Source: a virus | Reading direction: 5' to 3' (one strand) | Length of the DNA stretch: 35,654 nt | IMG/VR virus record: IMGVR_UViG_3300030060_006450 | Location: 1 to 35,654 of that record | In this document: positions 21,746 to 30,496 of the stretch, piece by piece | How positions within the stretch are numbered: position 1 is the stretch's first letter | Layout of the letters: every line of letters begins with the position of its first letter | The notes under the pieces: model-generated | Databases searched by the model: none | What the model was told of the DNA's origin: nothing | The model's input: the letters and a program-made list of their open reading frames with translations, nothing else | Program-made: the position numbers and the translations under genes

Positions 21746-23335
21746 TTATCCTTTAATTAACCATGAATATTTTTTATAATCTTCTTTTGCTTGAAACATT
21801 TTTTCGTCTAAAGTTTGCTTTTTGTCATAACCTTGCATACCGGGGATTGTTGTGTTTACTTTTGTATCTACCTTTATTATAGAACTTAAACAGGCTTTTT
21901 TATATTCTACCTCTCGCTTATTCACAGTCAGGGCTGTATCCCTTACCCAACAAGCGATTGCAAGTGCCATTGTTAAATCATCATTGTATCCCCTCATGGC
22001 TTGGGGTTTGCCATTTTGCCAAATAAAAGTTCGCAATTCATTAGAAAAACGAACTGAATATACTTTAATTAGTTTGTTTCTGATGAATTCTTCCAATTTT
22101 GCTACGATTAGTGGGCGAGTTTTTGAAGATGTGGTAAATCCAGGGACTGCGGAGTTGCTAGTTTCACCCTGGTGGCTCTCTACAAAATCGTGAGAACCTT
22201 TTACCGAGTAATATAAGTTAGGATATTGAAGATCGATTAATTTTTCTAAGACCGATATTCCAATACCTATATTTTCGACGACCAGTAGACAATTTCCATA
22301 CTCTTTTCCGGATTGTAGCAAAACATTTGCATACATATCCAGGCTTGGTTTTCCTTGGTATTCGGCGACCACTTCCATGGTATCCAGATTTAGAATGTGA
22401 AAGACCGAATAATCTGCGCCGTCGCCTCGCGCAACGTCTGCAACCAACAAATAGGAACACTCTGGATTATATTGCTCCCAAATCCACAAATTTCTATCAA
22501 AACCAGTTCTATATTTTGGATCTGTGACATTTTGCTCAATAAGTGCAATGTCATCTGGATGTATGACACTTTCACCAGAAGTATTAAAGTTACATTCAAG
22601 CTCTTGTGCTATCTCTCTACGAGACATATTTCTTGTTTCTTTGACAAACCACTCTTTATCCCTGTCGGGATGAACATCCCAAGGGAGATTTATGGGGTGG
22701 AAATCATTACTTCCCTCTATTGCCTCAACATAAGTTTTGTGAAACCAATTACCTACACCATTTGGGGTACTAAGTGCAATCACTCGACCACCTGTGGAGA
22801 TGGTTGGGTAGAGACCTGCCCACAATTCTGTTAAATTCTCGACATGAGCGGCCTCGTCAATTACCAAAAGAGAAAGAGCCTCCGAGCGACCGGCATCGCC
22901 AGAAGTTGAGGCAGCTTGTATTTGCGAGCCGTTTGTTAACTCGAAAGATGATCTATTGTCTATGGAAATATCTGCGAGTGTGATCCAGTCTGGCAAATTC
23001 TTCATAATTGCTTTGACTTTTTTAACAAGATTCGATGCAGTTTTAAATTTGGTTGCCATAACCAAAATATTTTTATCTCTATGGAATAGCATTAGCCAAA
23101 CTATGTATCCGGCTGCGATTGTAGAAATACCAAGCTGACGAGCCTTTAAAATCACGTTAAAACGATGATCATTAAAATCTTGAAGCAAGTCTGCCTGGTA
23201 TGGATACGTCTTAAAAGGTATCAAGCCGTCGATAGGATGAGATATTCTGGCGTAGTTGTCGATAAAATAAACGGGATCTTTGCCGCATTTTAAAATTTCA
23301 GCTACTATCTCTTTTTTAGATAGCGTGTATGACAT
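21746..23335 (-). CDS. 17: Terminase large subunit, T4 gp17-like
   Basis: The product has 529 residues. The ATPase domain shows PYQADLLQDF (adenine-binding region), a variant Walker A KARQLGIS at about 64-71, Walker B LLVIDEAAHV with catalytic Glu at 161, and the coupling motif ALSTPNG at about 187-193. The RNase H-like nuclease domain shows LLVADVARGDGADYSVF (Asp300), LVVENIGIG (Glu354) and GYNDDLTMALAIA near the C-terminus. It is the DNA packaging motor and headful nuclease, docking on the portal encoded just downstream. It is somewhat shorter than T4 gp17, at both ends. Confidence 0.96.
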   Translation of the reverse strand: MSYTLSKKEIVAEILKCGKDPVYFIDNYARISHPIDGLIPFKTYPYQADLLQDFNDHRFNVILKARQLGISTIAAGYIVWLMLFHRDKNILVMATKFKTASNLVKKVKAIMKNLPDWITLADISIDNRSSFELTNGSQIQAASTSGDAGRSEALSLLVIDEAAHVENLTELWAGLYPTISTGGRVIALSTPNGVGNWFHKTYVEAIEGSNDFHPINLPWDVHPDRDKEWFVKETRNMSRREIAQELECNFNTSGESVIHPDDIALIEQNVTDPKYRTGFDRNLWIWEQYNPECSYLLVADVARGDGADYSVFHILNLDTMEVVAEYQGKPSLDMYANVLLQSGKEYGNCLLVVENIGIGISVLEKLIDLQYPNLYYSVKGSHDFVESHQGETSNSAVPGFTTSSKTRPLIVAKLEEFIRNKLIKVYSVRFSNELRTFIWQNGKPQAMRGYNDDLTMALAIACWVRDTALTVNKREVEYKKACLSSIIKVDTKVNTTIPGMQGYDKKQTLDEKMFQAKEDYKKYSWLIKG

Positions 23336-25646: not shown

Positions 25647-25841
25647 TTAGAGCCCTTTCAATTTTACAATGGCATCGATAACAGATTGACCGCCAATATA
25701 AAGCGCACTTAAAATAAGCCAATCTCCACTATCAATAGTCGCATTGAACATTAATGCTGTAGCTGTTGCCCATACAAGCAGTTTTCGAGAAACCATCTTT
25801 TCGAGCAATTTGTCAACAGCGCCTCTTGCTGCTTCAGTCAT
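25647..25841 (-). CDS. Small membrane protein, holin-like
   Basis: The product has 64 residues: a charged N-terminus (MTEAARGAVDKLLEKMVSRK), a hydrophobic segment (LLVWATATALMF), a short polar turn (NATIDSGDW) and a second hydrophobic stretch (LILSALYIGGQSVIDAIV), ending KLKGL. Two helices, small size and a basic tail are usual for class II-type holins. It precedes two spanin-like genes, which supports a lysis group. AAGGAG lies upstream of the ATG. No endolysin is in the window. Confidence 0.5.
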   Translation of the reverse strand: MTEAARGAVDKLLEKMVSRKLLVWATATALMFNATIDSGDWLILSALYIGGQSVIDAIVKLKGL

Positions 25842-25851
25842 TTTTTCTCCT

Positions 25852-28800
25852 TTATACTACTACGGAAGCATATCCGTCTATCTTATCAATTGTTATTTGC
25901 ATATCTACACAATCTTTTAGTGTGTCAAGATGCGAGATAAGCAATACTTTTTTGAAATAATTCTTAATAATTGCAAGTATGTCTACAAAGCCTTGCATGT
26001 TTTCTTCATCGAGGGAGGTTCCAGGCTCATCTAATATAAAAATGTCTCCCTTTGGCAAGCTGGATACACTTAGTAGAGCCAGCCTGATTGCCATGGCTGC
26101 GATTGTCTTCTCTGCGCCGGACCCCATTTCTAAAGGCCGTGGATCGTAAGATGGGTGCCTGATGAAAATATCTAATCTGTTTTCGTCGTCTTCAAAAAAT
26201 ACCTCAAAATCAACAATATTTGCCAAAATTTTTGCAATCTCCTCATTGATTATTGGCAATTTCTTACGAATTACTTCAAATGCGATGCCGTTTGACTTCA
26301 TACAGGTCATATATAAGTCATATGCTGATATCTCTGATTGCAAAGACTCAAAAGAATTTTTTTGCTCTTCTAAGTTTGTTAATTTCTGCTCTAATGATCC
26401 TACTGCCTTATAAAGTTCCATAACGTCGCTATTACAAGATTCACTTTTGTTCTTTGTTGATTGTTGTTTGACTTTTAAGTTTTTCAATTCAGAATTTAGA
26501 GTTTCTAAATTTTCAATTGCTTCTTTATTTTGCTCATATTCCGAAAGTTCATTTTCGAGCTTTTCTACCTCGTTTAATAAGTTGGTTATACAAGATTTAT
26601 TTTTGTCAATTTTTAATCCATAATTAATAATTTCGTTAGATAACCTATTTCTTTCACCTATAATCTCGTTATAGACTGAAATTTTCTTTTCGATCAAATC
26701 TGGATTTAACTCTACTATTTCTTCTTTCAGAGAAGAAATGGCTTTTTCAAAATTTAAAATCTTTTCCTTATTCATTGGAAGAAGCTCTTTAGATTTGTAG
26801 GCGTCTTTGACAAATGGATTTTCGCAGCAATAATCGCAATCTGGATCATATTCGTGATCGTCGAGCATTTTTATTTTTTTATTATTGTGCGCCAAATCTT
26901 TGTTTTCTTCATTCAATTTAAGATTCAAGACATCAATATCCCCAGACAAGCTATCAATTTTTGATTTTTTGGCAAATAATTGATCCCTATCATAAGAACC
27001 AAGAAAACTTTTAATGGTGTCATAATCTTTTTCTGACTTTTCTTTGTTTTTCTTTAAATTTCCTATTTCCTCATTGGCGCTTAAAAGTTGTTGTTTTTTA
27101 TCTTCCAAAAAGGTTTTGACTTTTACCACGTCAATAACTTCGGCAGGGATAGAATTAATTTTTTCTTCAATATTCTTAATATCTAAAAAATATTGCTCCA
27201 TTTCTTTTTTATATTCTTGACACTTTTCTTTCTTTTCCCTTAAATCAAGTTCAGATTCGGCTAAATCTTTTTGTGCGTCTGTGATTTCTTTATTGAAATC
27301 TTTGTCACTCATTTTTTTCAGTGCCCCTCTTGTGTCTGTAGAATCCTCTTTTGCTAATTTGTATTTTGTTTCGAAGAATTTAAGATCCAAAAAGTTTGCT
27401 AAAATTTCTTTTCTCTTTGTAGAACCCTCTTTAATAAAAGATAGGGAATCCATCTGGCTGGCCATAGAAGAATATAAAAAGTCGTCCAAGGTTCCAAAGA
27501 CCTTTCTTATGTTTTTATCCGTATCATTTCTGGACAATCCGTTGAGGCTTTCTGAATCTTGTTCTATTGCAGAATAGACTGAAAAATCTACGTTTGTTTT
27601 TGCTTCGGTTGTCTGTTTTCCTTTTGAATTCTTAATATATTTAGAGGCAGTCCTTTCAATTGTATAATCTAAATCTCCAATGGAAATAATTGCTTTTCCC
27701 AAGCAAGATTCTTTATTCTGGTTGATTACATTAAGATTTTTTCTATCATTCTTTGACGTAGAATTAAAAACCGTAAATAATAAAGAATCAATGATGCTTG
27801 ATTTTCCGGAATAGTTCTTTCCGAAAACTCCAATAATCCCATCAAGATTCTCAAAATTTACAGAATTAGATTCTCCGTAGTTAAAAAGATTATCAAACTC
27901 TAAAGACTTTAATTTCCAATTTACATTTCTGGCAATCTGTTCATTTTCTTCAGCTATTTTATTGTATTTTAAATTAAGATCCAGAACTTGCTTTTCTACA
28001 TCTTCGTCCAATTCATAATCTTTTAAATATTCCTTAATAAGTCTTTCTTGAACGTCGATGTCTCGAAGATTTTCAACCAACAAATTACCATTTTCATCAG
28101 TAACATTCCCCTTTTTTCCAGACGCTCGATTGAAAAAAGATATACTTTCTGGCTTAAAACGCCTTTTGGCAACGTCAATAGCCTTTCGCATGGTATGTAG
28201 CGGCAGATTATTATCTGAAATCAATCTCAAGCGAGCCTTGGGGGGAATGCTTGTATTTTTTGGCATTTTTCCCTTTGGCGTCAAAACAATCGTCACAAAG
28301 GGTCTGGGATTTTTAAGCTCGATGTGTCTGCATTTAAAGCTTTCTTTATCTTCAATTTCCCAAATTAAAAATCCCTTATCATTAGTTTCACCATGGTTCT
28401 GCTGAACAGTAGATCCGCAGTATCGAATGCGGCCTTCTTCATCAAGACACTGATTGGTTTTGTGAATATCTCCAAGAAAAGCATAATCGTGCCCCTCGAA
28501 GATATCAATTGGGTGCTCGCCGTGTTCCATTACCCATCCGGTATCAGTTTTTACACCGCTAATAGACCCATGATATAGGGCAATATTTATTTTATTATCA
28601 TCTGCTGGTTTAACCCAATTTTCTTCATCGAATACAGATAAAACATTTATTGCCACAGAATCGCCCAGGAGCGTTTCTCCAGAATTCTTAAGTAAATGAA
28701 GCCTTGGATGCTCTAAAGCTTCAGCAATGGGCGTTAGTGCGTCCTGGCGGCTAGAATTTTTTAGGTTCCCATCATGATTACCCAAAATAACGTATGTTGG

Positions 28801-29013
28801 GGCAATATCAGCCAGCGAGCGAAAGAACTTAGTACACATTTCTACAAATTCTGGTGAAATTTGTGTTTTTGTGTGTGCAATATCTCCGCAGTGAATAATA
28901 TAGTCTACCTTTTCTTCTTTCAAAACTTCATAAAGTTTATCAAAAACAGTTTTGTATTCATAATGGAATTTTAGATTTCTGATGTGAGTATCAGCAATAT
29001 GAGCAAACTTCAA
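25852..29013 (-). CDS. Fused Mre11-Rad50 (gp47-gp46 / SbcDC) recombination nuclease
   Basis: One 1053-residue frame holds both subunits. Residues ~1-345 are the Mre11/SbcD/gp47 phosphoesterase: ADTH (7-10), HCGDIAH (41-47), GNHDG (79-82), LYHG (147-150), LGDIHK (180-185). Residues ~365-1053 are the Rad50/SbcC/gp46 ATPase: Walker A GKNYSGKSS (398-406), a long coiled coil with the zinc-hook motif CDYC (726-729), signature GSGAEKT (964-970) and Walker B IFILDEPGTSLDE (991-1003), then the LLISHLD H-loop. In T4 these are two genes, 47 and 46. The complex resects DNA ends for recombination-dependent replication. No frameshift or stop lies in the joint. The start is 10 bases after the primase stop. 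Confidence 0.95.
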   Translation of the reverse strand: MKFAHIADTHIRNLKFHYEYKTVFDKLYEVLKEEKVDYIIHCGDIAHTKTQISPEFVEMCTKFFRSLADIAPTYVILGNHDGNLKNSSRQDALTPIAEALEHPRLHLLKNSGETLLGDSVAINVLSVFDEENWVKPADDNKINIALYHGSISGVKTDTGWVMEHGEHPIDIFEGHDYAFLGDIHKTNQCLDEEGRIRYCGSTVQQNHGETNDKGFLIWEIEDKESFKCRHIELKNPRPFVTIVLTPKGKMPKNTSIPPKARLRLISDNNLPLHTMRKAIDVAKRRFKPESISFFNRASGKKGNVTDENGNLLVENLRDIDVQERLIKEYLKDYELDEDVEKQVLDLNLKYNKIAEENEQIARNVNWKLKSLEFDNLFNYGESNSVNFENLDGIIGVFGKNYSGKSSIIDSLLFTVFNSTSKNDRKNLNVINQNKESCLGKAIISIGDLDYTIERTASKYIKNSKGKQTTEAKTNVDFSVYSAIEQDSESLNGLSRNDTDKNIRKVFGTLDDFLYSSMASQMDSLSFIKEGSTKRKEILANFLDLKFFETKYKLAKEDSTDTRGALKKMSDKDFNKEITDAQKDLAESELDLREKKEKCQEYKKEMEQYFLDIKNIEEKINSIPAEVIDVVKVKTFLEDKKQQLLSANEEIGNLKKNKEKSEKDYDTIKSFLGSYDRDQLFAKKSKIDSLSGDIDVLNLKLNEENKDLAHNNKKIKMLDDHEYDPDCDYCCENPFVKDAYKSKELLPMNKEKILNFEKAISSLKEEIVELNPDLIEKKISVYNEIIGERNRLSNEIINYGLKIDKNKSCITNLLNEVEKLENELSEYEQNKEAIENLETLNSELKNLKVKQQSTKNKSESCNSDVMELYKAVGSLEQKLTNLEEQKNSFESLQSEISAYDLYMTCMKSNGIAFEVIRKKLPIINEEIAKILANIVDFEVFFEDDENRLDIFIRHPSYDPRPLEMGSGAEKTIAAMAIRLALLSVSSLPKGDIFILDEPGTSLDEENMQGFVDILAIIKNYFKKVLLISHLDTLKDCVDMQITIDKIDGYASVVV

Positions 29014-29023
29014 ACTTATTCTC

Positions 29024-29959
29024 CTATAAAGAATTTATGGCTTCGTATAGCCCGTCAATGTCGTCCACATAGGGGGCATTATTTGATAATAATTGAACTT
29101 CCTGTTTTGTCATTTCTCCAAGATCTCTTTGATCTTGATATTTTATTTGTCTTACTTCTATTCCGTATTTTAAAATTAATTTTCTGATTGAATTTGTCTT
29201 TTTTGTGGCATCCGGATCTAGAGCTAAAAGAACTGGAGTATCATTTTGTAGAATTTTTTTAAAAACCTTAGAAGTTTCACGGACGGTAGACCCTAGAATT
29301 GGAACTGCATTATTGGCTTTTATGGCATCAAATACACCCTCTACAATTGTTATTTCCCTGTCGAAATCTAGATACAGCTCATTAAAAACTATATCTCGAC
29401 TAACTGAAGGATTTAAATATCTCTTATAGTTCTCTGCATATGTCCTGGCAATGTAATAATTTAAATTTCCTTCTAAATTAAATGACGGCACGATTATTCT
29501 GTCTTTAAATCTCCCAGAGTCACAATATCCAATCTTCCATCTTAATATATCAGAACGTCCGATGCCGCGTGTTGTCAAGTAGTTCATTGCAGCCTTATAA
29601 GATCTAGAATTAGATGGCCGCGTTAGTGTTTTAAAACCCTCTGGTATTTCTAATATGGTTTCCCTTTCTTCTTCCTTTTCCTCTTCTTGAAAAAGAAAAT
29701 TAATTTTACTTAAATCTTCAAAATTTCCAGTTAACTGCTTCCAGCGCTCTAACTGCCTAGAATCTCCAAACCTTTTAATTAAGCGAAATAAGCTCTTACC
29801 TCGCGCATCACATATCCAGCATTTATAAACATTTTTTTCAACATTAACAGAAAATTTATTTTTGTGATGACCACAGTATGGGCACGTAAAAAGATACTCA
29901 TCGTTTGATTTGTAACTTCTTCCAAGAATGTTATGAAGTATGGAAAGTTTTTCATTCAT
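29024..29959 (-). CDS. DNA primase (zinc finger plus Toprim)
   Basis: The product has 311 residues. An N-terminal zinc-binding domain has CPYC at 26-29, His31/32 and CWIC at 47-50. The Toprim part shows TIVEGVFDAI (Glu207) and LLALDPDA (DPD at about 248-250). It is the length of a free-standing primase such as T4 gp61, without a helicase domain, and would make RNA primers on the lagging strand. The ATG at 29957-29959 is chosen; a GTG at 29975-29977 would add six residues, and neither has a good ribosome-binding site. It follows the resolvase gene closely. Confidence 0.88.
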   Translation of the reverse strand: MNEKLSILHNILGRSYKSNDEYLFTCPYCGHHKNKFSVNVEKNVYKCWICDARGKSLFRLIKRFGDSRQLERWKQLTGNFEDLSKINFLFQEEEKEEERETILEIPEGFKTLTRPSNSRSYKAAMNYLTTRGIGRSDILRWKIGYCDSGRFKDRIIVPSFNLEGNLNYYIARTYAENYKRYLNPSVSRDIVFNELYLDFDREITIVEGVFDAIKANNAVPILGSTVRETSKVFKKILQNDTPVLLALDPDATKKTNSIRKLILKYGIEVRQIKYQDQRDLGEMTKQEVQLLSNNAPYVDDIDGLYEAINSL

Positions 29960-29983
29960 ATCCTTAATATAACACACTATTTT

Positions 29984-30496
29984 CTATGTGTCAAGGATTA
30001 TTTTTGATCCTGCTTTAGCTATCACCACAGCGTCTGCGATATCATAGCAATATTTTTGTACATTACCATATCTGGTATAGTCGATGGGAAATTCTTTGGT
30101 TTCTAAAAAGTGATCCATTACCACATCTTTAGCTTTTTTGCCTCTGGGAACCTTAATACCACATTTAGAGCGGGCAGATAGTGGTGTAATATATTGAGGC
30201 TCTAGCTCTAAGAGTTTAAAGCACAGCCAAGAAACCACGCCGTTAAAATTCTGTAAAATTGCCATGGTTTTAGCTGTTGATCCGCCTTGGCGGAAAAACG
30301 TAAAGGCTTGCTCAATAAAGATGTGCTTTATATTTTGTTCTTGTAGATTATGAATTATATAATCTTCCACTACTTTGGCTTTGTTTAAGAGACCCGTAAT
30401 CTTTCGTAAATCAATATAATCTGTTTTGACAATTTTATCGTCTTTCAGCAAACAAACACCGATGATGCTTGTGCTGACATCTAATCCTAGAATCAT
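29984..30496 (-). CDS. RuvC-like Holliday junction resolvase
   Basis: The product has 170 residues, RuvC size. RNase H-fold acidic residues are placed as in RuvC: Asp6 in ILGLDVSTSIIG, Glu62 in IFIEQAF, and Asp152/Asp155 in CYDIADAVVIA. A central GGSTAKTMAILQNFNGVVSW fits the helix behind the active site. It probably cuts branched DNA before packaging, doing the job of T4 gp49 with a different fold. It overlaps the upstream structural gene by 1 base and sits in a block with primase and Mre11-Rad50. Confidence 0.82.
   Translation of the reverse strand: MILGLDVSTSIIGVCLLKDDKIVKTDYIDLRKITGLLNKAKVVEDYIIHNLQEQNIKHIFIEQAFTFFRQGGSTAKTMAILQNFNGVVSWLCFKLLELEPQYITPLSARSKCGIKVPRGKKAKDVVMDHFLETKEFPIDYTRYGNVQKYCYDIADAVVIAKAGSKIILDT

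Follow-up and report, generated by a model that had tools for sequence, protein, structure and literature searches.

A fused Mre11-Rad50 gene in a tailed phage and its aquatic relatives, and the variable hook of its protein family

The complexes formed by gp46/47 of phage T4 and by SbcCD resect DNA ends to 3' strands, which then serve strand invasion of the RecA type. End resection of this kind by such complexes is also told in the part of PMC3175470 drawn on here. In T4 the two proteins gp47 and gp46 are separate polypeptides with two small genes between them, and in E. coli the sbcD and sbcC genes overlap; both pairs are the same enzymes, with the same folds, CxxC hook and transcription order, as the fusion described below. 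Single-chain forms have been in print since 2011, when Yoshida, Claverie and Ogata reported Mimivirus R555 and twelve other Mre11/Rad50 fusions, which occur in Mimivirus, a Bacillus phage, plasmids, bacteria and eukaryotes, so that the novelty of the fusion implied in the initial annotation of our sequence fails (PMC3175470, sections cited). In those sections Bacillus phage 0305phi8-36 is named, homologues of R555 are inferred in aquatic phages from short metagenome reads, and R555-like metagenome genes are placed on phage scaffolds with primases. R555 is described there with a His in the GDxxH motif and an Asp replacing His206 of the P. furiosus enzyme, and the linker of a fusion in cis is estimated at 9-12 residues. 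The CxxC hook of Rad50, for its part, is characterized as highly conserved and essential in the cited part of PMC9569753.

The window analysed here is a whole stretch of 35,654 nucleotides from one IMG/VR virus record. Its fused Mre11-Rad50 (SbcD-SbcC) gene occupies 25852..29013 on the minus strand, on which the other features of the window given below also lie; it starts with TTG at 29013, ends with TAA at 25854-25852 and encodes 1053 amino acids in a single frame without interruption, while the plus strand of the same interval is full of stops. A Shine-Dalgarno-like AGGAG (29021..29025) lies 7 nt 5' of the TTG and is kept at the starts of many relatives. One relative of the gene, L001, is 90% identical. 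The chain runs from an SbcD/Mre11 phosphoesterase through a capping domain, a helix-loop-helix and a linker into a complete SbcC/Rad50 ATPase, whose coiled coils carry a hook of the CxxC type. PHROGs profiles cover both halves, an SbcD-like one over residues 1-477 (E 4e-34) and an SbcC-like one over residues 183-1052 (E 1e-51). By its published description R555 shares with this protein the order of Mre11 then Rad50, a short linker, GDxxH and the change of His206 to Asp, and the window gene adjoins a primase as R555-like metagenome genes share scaffolds with primases. R555 is, however, 1351 aa long with a longer coiled coil and belongs to a giant virus of amoebae, whereas the window protein is shorter and is found in a phage.

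The Mre11/SbcD phosphoesterase comprises residues 1-240 (28294..29013), with D8, H10, D44, H47, N79, H80, H148, D182 and H184 as its motif residues, and is matched by Pfam Metallophos (PF00149) over residues 1-184 above the cut-off (E 8e-14). The metallophosphoesterase motifs are all present, namely D8/H10, G43-D44..H47, G78NHD, H148 and D182/H184. Among the matches listed, D8, D44, H47, N79, H80, H148, D182 and H184 are invariant in 126 of 126 proteins, and H10 is present in 125 of the 126 with one gap. The one departure from the canonical set is Asp182, which replaces the leading His of the final motif in all 126 proteins listed; T4 and E. coli proteins have His in this motif V. Both changes described for R555 are thus found in the window protein, as H47 and D182. 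Since Asp182 falls at the position of P. furiosus Mre11 His206, a residue of the Mn2 site, metal use or activity could differ. The Asp variant also occurs in T5-type split phage proteins (VibD239 and PSTCR5) and in the protein of RHph_TM61, and VibD239 and PSTCR5 show that proteins other than fusions have it too. The capping domain, at residues about 241-297 (28123..28293), was assigned from the secondary structure of a model, in which its elements span residues 239-295, and from a match with S. aureus SbcD, whose nuclease and capping domains align with model residues 1-296 at Z 24.1 and 3.4 A over 275 residues (VIA-align).

On the Rad50 side, the N-terminal ATPase lobe spans residues 365-545 (27379..27921) and carries Q520, with the Walker A motif GKNYSGKS at residues 398-405 (27822-27799). 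It is followed by coiled-coil arms and hook at residues 546-905 (26299..27378), where the model has long helices and the SbcC-like PHROG match spans the region, and by the C-terminal lobe at residues 906-1053 (25855..26298) with SGAEK at 965-969, the Walker B ILDE ending at E996, D1002 and H1028; both lobes were placed by sequence and by structure match. The set of ATPase motifs in this head split by a coiled coil is therefore complete (G398KNYSGKS405, Q520, S965GAEK969, D995E996, D1002, H1028). Among the matches listed, K404, Q520, S965, G966, D995, E996, D1002 and H1028 are invariant in 126 proteins, and S405 varies once. Pfam is weak on this half, with SMC_N at 9e-4 below the cut-off, so the ATPase call rests on PHROGs, on NCBIfam matches which are also below their cut-off, on a PDB sequence match to an archaeal Rad50 (E 4e-11, residues 910-1051) and on structure. 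An AlphaFold2 monomer model made from a 38-row alignment (A1) has a mean pLDDT of 79.9 and a pTM of 0.48. Its best Foldseek matches in PDB are Mre11-Rad50 and SMC heads, and its Rad50 part aligns with the M. jannaschii Rad50 and E. coli SbcC heads at Z 30.7 (VIA-align). The best BFVD match is a Tupanvirus protein, 24% identical over 1318 columns; judged by names and lengths, the viral structural neighbours are mimivirus-like proteins (Tupanvirus, Harvfovirus, Yasminevirus, Terrestrivirus, Catovirus), and the next ones come from Tenacibaculum phages pT24 and PTm1 and Listeria phage LMTA-57. Sequence, conservation in the family and predicted structure together back the initial annotation of a Mre11-Rad50 fusion that unites a nuclease, a full ATPase and a zinc hook.

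The junction between the halves is short. After the phosphoesterase and capping domain the model passes through a poor stretch (297-312) into helices 319-333 and 337-356, then the linker at residues 357-364 and the first Rad50 strand at 365-374, and hence the Mre11 C-terminus leads directly into the Rad50 head, as had been proposed. The two helices (residues 319-356, 27946..28059) probably make up the helix-loop-helix by which Mre11 binds Rad50, a name given by analogy with T. maritima Mre11 in the cited part of PMC3175470 and assigned from the helix pattern alone. The linker (27922..27945) has 8 residues, close to the 9-12 estimated in that paper, and contributes R362 and N363 to a conserved RNxxW that ends in W366; the region 337-366 is equal in length in 123 of the 126 proteins listed. 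The distance of 8 residues from the end of the helix-loop-helix to the Rad50 head would fit packing on the coil root within one chain, as well as an M2R2 homodimer, and fusion of the two halves in one chain fixes their stoichiometry at 1:1.

The neighbourhood of the gene shows its phage context. From upstream to downstream the order is a RuvC-like Holliday junction resolvase (29984..30496, PHROG E 3e-10), a primase-like gene directly upstream of the fusion (29024..29977, PHROG primase E 2e-46), the fused gene, a conserved 64-aa ORF directly downstream (25647..25841), and then terminase, portal, protease and major head protein, with the terminase large subunit at 21746..23335 (PHROG E 5e-55). 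Of 117 loci among the matches listed that have 1.1 kb or more of upstream sequence, 112 carry the primase there in the orientation of the fused gene, and the 64-aa ORF is found in 133 loci; its sequence looks like that of a small membrane protein, and holin-like would be a guess. Longer sequences were covered by 16 records of 140-204 kb, of stated length but without a statement of completeness, comprising 15 from IMG/VR and the Microcystis phage Mel-JY01. In each of the 16, no strong match of the SbcC type occurs other than the fused gene, with weak extras in G011 and Mel-JY01, and a further small separate phosphoesterase of 220-257 aa occurs in 3 of the 16. A RecA-family gene is present in all 16 long records, and none was found in the scanned parts of the 35.6-kb window. 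The fused protein is most likely the only Mre11-Rad50 complex of the phage.

We consider it quite probable that the gene encodes a single-chain Mre11-Rad50 (SbcCD-type) nuclease of the R555-like kind in a tailed phage, which would act in recombination-dependent replication. The Mre11 part would form a two-metal nuclease and its dimer, the helix-loop-helix would pack within its own chain at the base of the coiled coil, and the 8-residue linker would enter the Rad50 head. Two chains would dimerise through Mre11, through the ATP-bound heads and through the hook to give M2R2, and binding and hydrolysis of ATP would gate the nuclease, opening it to DNA ends and closing it again. The product would be 3' single strands for the RecA-type recombinase of the phage, and it is in this end resection that we infer the role of the protein to lie.

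Instead of resection for recombination-dependent replication, the same enzyme might have another main job: it might degrade host DNA, or it might cut hairpins, palindromes and blocked ends. The annotation of T4 gp46/47 makes it necessary for recombination and for host-DNA degradation, and SbcCD cuts hairpins and blocked ends according to the cited part of PMC6265447; however, the fused gene adjoins a primase and a RuvC-like resolvase and is accompanied by the RecA-family gene in the long relatives, and we regard such a main job as rather improbable, extra jobs being still compatible with a recombination nuclease. Far less likely is a fusion that exists in the DNA only, with two products in the cell arising from an internal Rad50 start or a protease cut. 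Among the matches listed, an in-frame ATG, GTG or TTG between window residues 345 and 395 is present in 90 of 126 relatives, 9 of those 90 with a Shine-Dalgarno-like 4-mer. But in the window gene no start codon lies in frame anywhere from residue 336 to residue 420, by which an internal start for a separate Rad50 was rejected there, and the linker is conserved in both length and sequence (R362, N363, W366), unlike a join to be discarded. A sequencing or assembly error fusing two adjacent genes is next to impossible: although the source is a metagenomic contig and one relative (L034) carries an in-frame stop elsewhere, the frame is open through the junction in 48 of 49 and 75 of 79 loci (the latter from the best 80 of at least 584), from many metagenomes and at 50-90% identity, as well as in the isolate Mel-JY01.

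These counts come from two scans of IMG/VR, with some contigs common to both. The first, with the window protein, gave 64 loci of 47-90% identity, 49 of which reach from residue 1 or 2 to at least residue 1051; 48 of them are one open frame, and the sole broken one, L034, has a TGA at codon 199, away from the junction. The remaining 15 are pieces, among them L039 and L061, neighbouring on one contig and parting near residue 775. The second scan, with an alignment, gave at least 584 relatives among 599 stretches, of which the best 80 were analysed and contributed 79 new loci (L081-L159): 73 with one full-length frame, 2 (L136 and L152) whose full-length frame is followed by a surplus C-terminal remnant, and 4 ending at contig ends. 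The remnants are a second copy of the last ~60 residues downstream of the full gene (L152 6959-7902, L136 7150-7359), and in L152 gene and remnant are separated by an ORF that reads as a GIY-YIG endonuclease, which resembles homing with a leftover old end. The junction is unbroken in all relatives and the fusion is thus no artefact; the missed stop or frameshift near residues 345-370 that had been raised as the way in which the single 1053-residue frame could prove false was not found, L001 and the other spanning relatives being open there, and an assembly join is ruled out by the same open frames. The domain order is widespread in aquatic phages. Outside phages little was seen: plasmids gave 1 weak match only (Haloferax, residues 2-242) among 72,556 records, and contigs of cellular genomes gave 10 loci, three of which (L071, L072, L073), at 52-62% identity, come from MAG contigs. 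These three were rejected as cellular genes and read as phage DNA in bins, with L071 matching an IMG/VR contig of equal length (L094) and the L073 gene lost in Ns at residue 627. L073 itself (CP070664.1, a WOR-3 MAG, 2.8-Mb bin chromosome) holds a 62% identical copy up to these Ns and is probably misjoined phage DNA.

Cultured phages with fused proteins are also in GenBank, under vague names. Mel-JY01, a freshwater cyanophage isolate, has a fused protein of 1066 aa (WWT39521.1, annotated as AAA domain containing protein) that is 31% identical over 99% of the query and has the same hook type as the window protein, with a primase-like gene two genes upstream. Xanthomonas phage XacN1 ORF305 (L167 3396-6695) and Rhizobium phage RHph_TM61 EVB64_239 (L172 3501-6380) are single chains of 1099 and 959 aa, both with Metallophos and SMC/AAA_23 matches and both annotated as recombination endonuclease.

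Trees were made for each half. In the Mre11 tree (35 rows, bactSTD1 excluded) the family of the window is supported at 99/99 and the other fused proteins, from Mel-JY01, LR756508, LR756501, a Nitrosopelagicus-bin contig and a deltaproteobacterial contig, at 97/94, the two together forming one side of a branch at 100/98; XacN1 goes with the T4-type split proteins at 99/96, and RHph_TM61 is a long and unsure branch beside the fused clade. For the Rad50 half a first tree, quickly searched, had long branches; the Rad50 tree used has 25 rows after dropping phageG, RHphTM61, 8 family rows and Yoloswag gp183, the last because its identity was guessed from position and its branch measured 9.84, and deltaOFTM was excluded from both Rad50 trees because it is cut by a contig end. 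Here the fused clade stands at 100/98, with Mel-JY01 again outside the immediate family of the window, and XacN1 joins the T4 type at 95/97. Both halves therefore share one history, with a single fusion behind the clade of the window. Placing all fused proteins in one clade of the Mre11 tree gave p-AU 0.058 with XacN1 and RHph_TM61, and 0.040 with XacN1 only. In view of these values and of its grouping with T4-type split proteins in both trees, XacN1 is likely, though not firmly shown, to be a second, separate fusion. In LR756508, a 484-kb phage (L067 3944-8169), a 305-aa ORF matching the TnsA-like N-terminal endonuclease interrupts the fused gene immediately past Mre11 motif V; this is perhaps a mobile intron or homing endonuclease.

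The hook differs in kind among members of the family. In the window protein it spans residues 711-740 (26794..26883) with the sequence DPDCDYCCENPF and has CDYC at 726-729 (26838-26827). The zinc hook of the initial annotation thus holds for this protein, but CxxC is found only in a minority of the family, 17 of 110 distinct proteins among the matches listed. The two scans yielded, among the matches listed, 126 full-length proteins, 112 of them distinct, of which 110 are the family of the window and two (L066, L074) lie outside. The hooks of these 110 are PC-x6/7-C in 87, DPxCxxC in 14, RGCxC in 5, another CxxC in 3 and other in 1. The PC-x6/7-C hook has two invariant cysteines 6 or 7 residues apart in PCGxxFPxCKF. 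On a quick tree of the heads alone (84 rows, coil and hook excluded), the hook label needs 12 changes against an average of 17.2 for shuffled labels, and is therefore clustered yet labile; at least 9 changes of the PC type are forced by starred branches. Hook type would then have changed repeatedly in the family, though recombination within the heads could make the changes look more numerous than they were.

In residues 1-240 the window protein shares 80-85% identity with L002, L003 and L004, against 21-40% in the hook, while with L005 and L018 the hook is 75-87% identical, most flanking coil blocks 23-33% and the heads 72-80%. At the DNA level the hook is 87% identical to that of L018, with third positions 73% alike in 26 same-residue codons as against 43-56% elsewhere in the gene; with L005 the value is 58%. 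The likeness to L018 is suggestive of cassette exchange, the signal being small, and strong selection on an old CxxC hook, present in Mel-JY01 too, would account for part of it. We tentatively entertain the possibility that the hook of the fused family is an exchangeable dimerisation cassette, mostly of the new PC type with a few RGCxC, that has switched many times, the window having CxxC while its nearest heads have the new form. No description of a PC-x6-C hook was found in the literature searched for hook variants, which is no proof of absence, and so far as that search reaches the polymorphism appears unreported and new here.

The window and its relatives supply full-length phage genes where the 2011 paper, in the sections cited (PMC3175470), inferred them from short metagenome reads. 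A single-chain Mre11-Rad50 is a handy construct, having a fixed stoichiometry and needing no co-expression, and is tractable for the study of cross-talk between the halves. What was unforeseen is that one orthologous family exchanges CxxC for another cysteine spacing with the rest of the machine kept. If the hook is indeed exchanged in this way, its switching could decide which phages' complexes pair during mixed infection.
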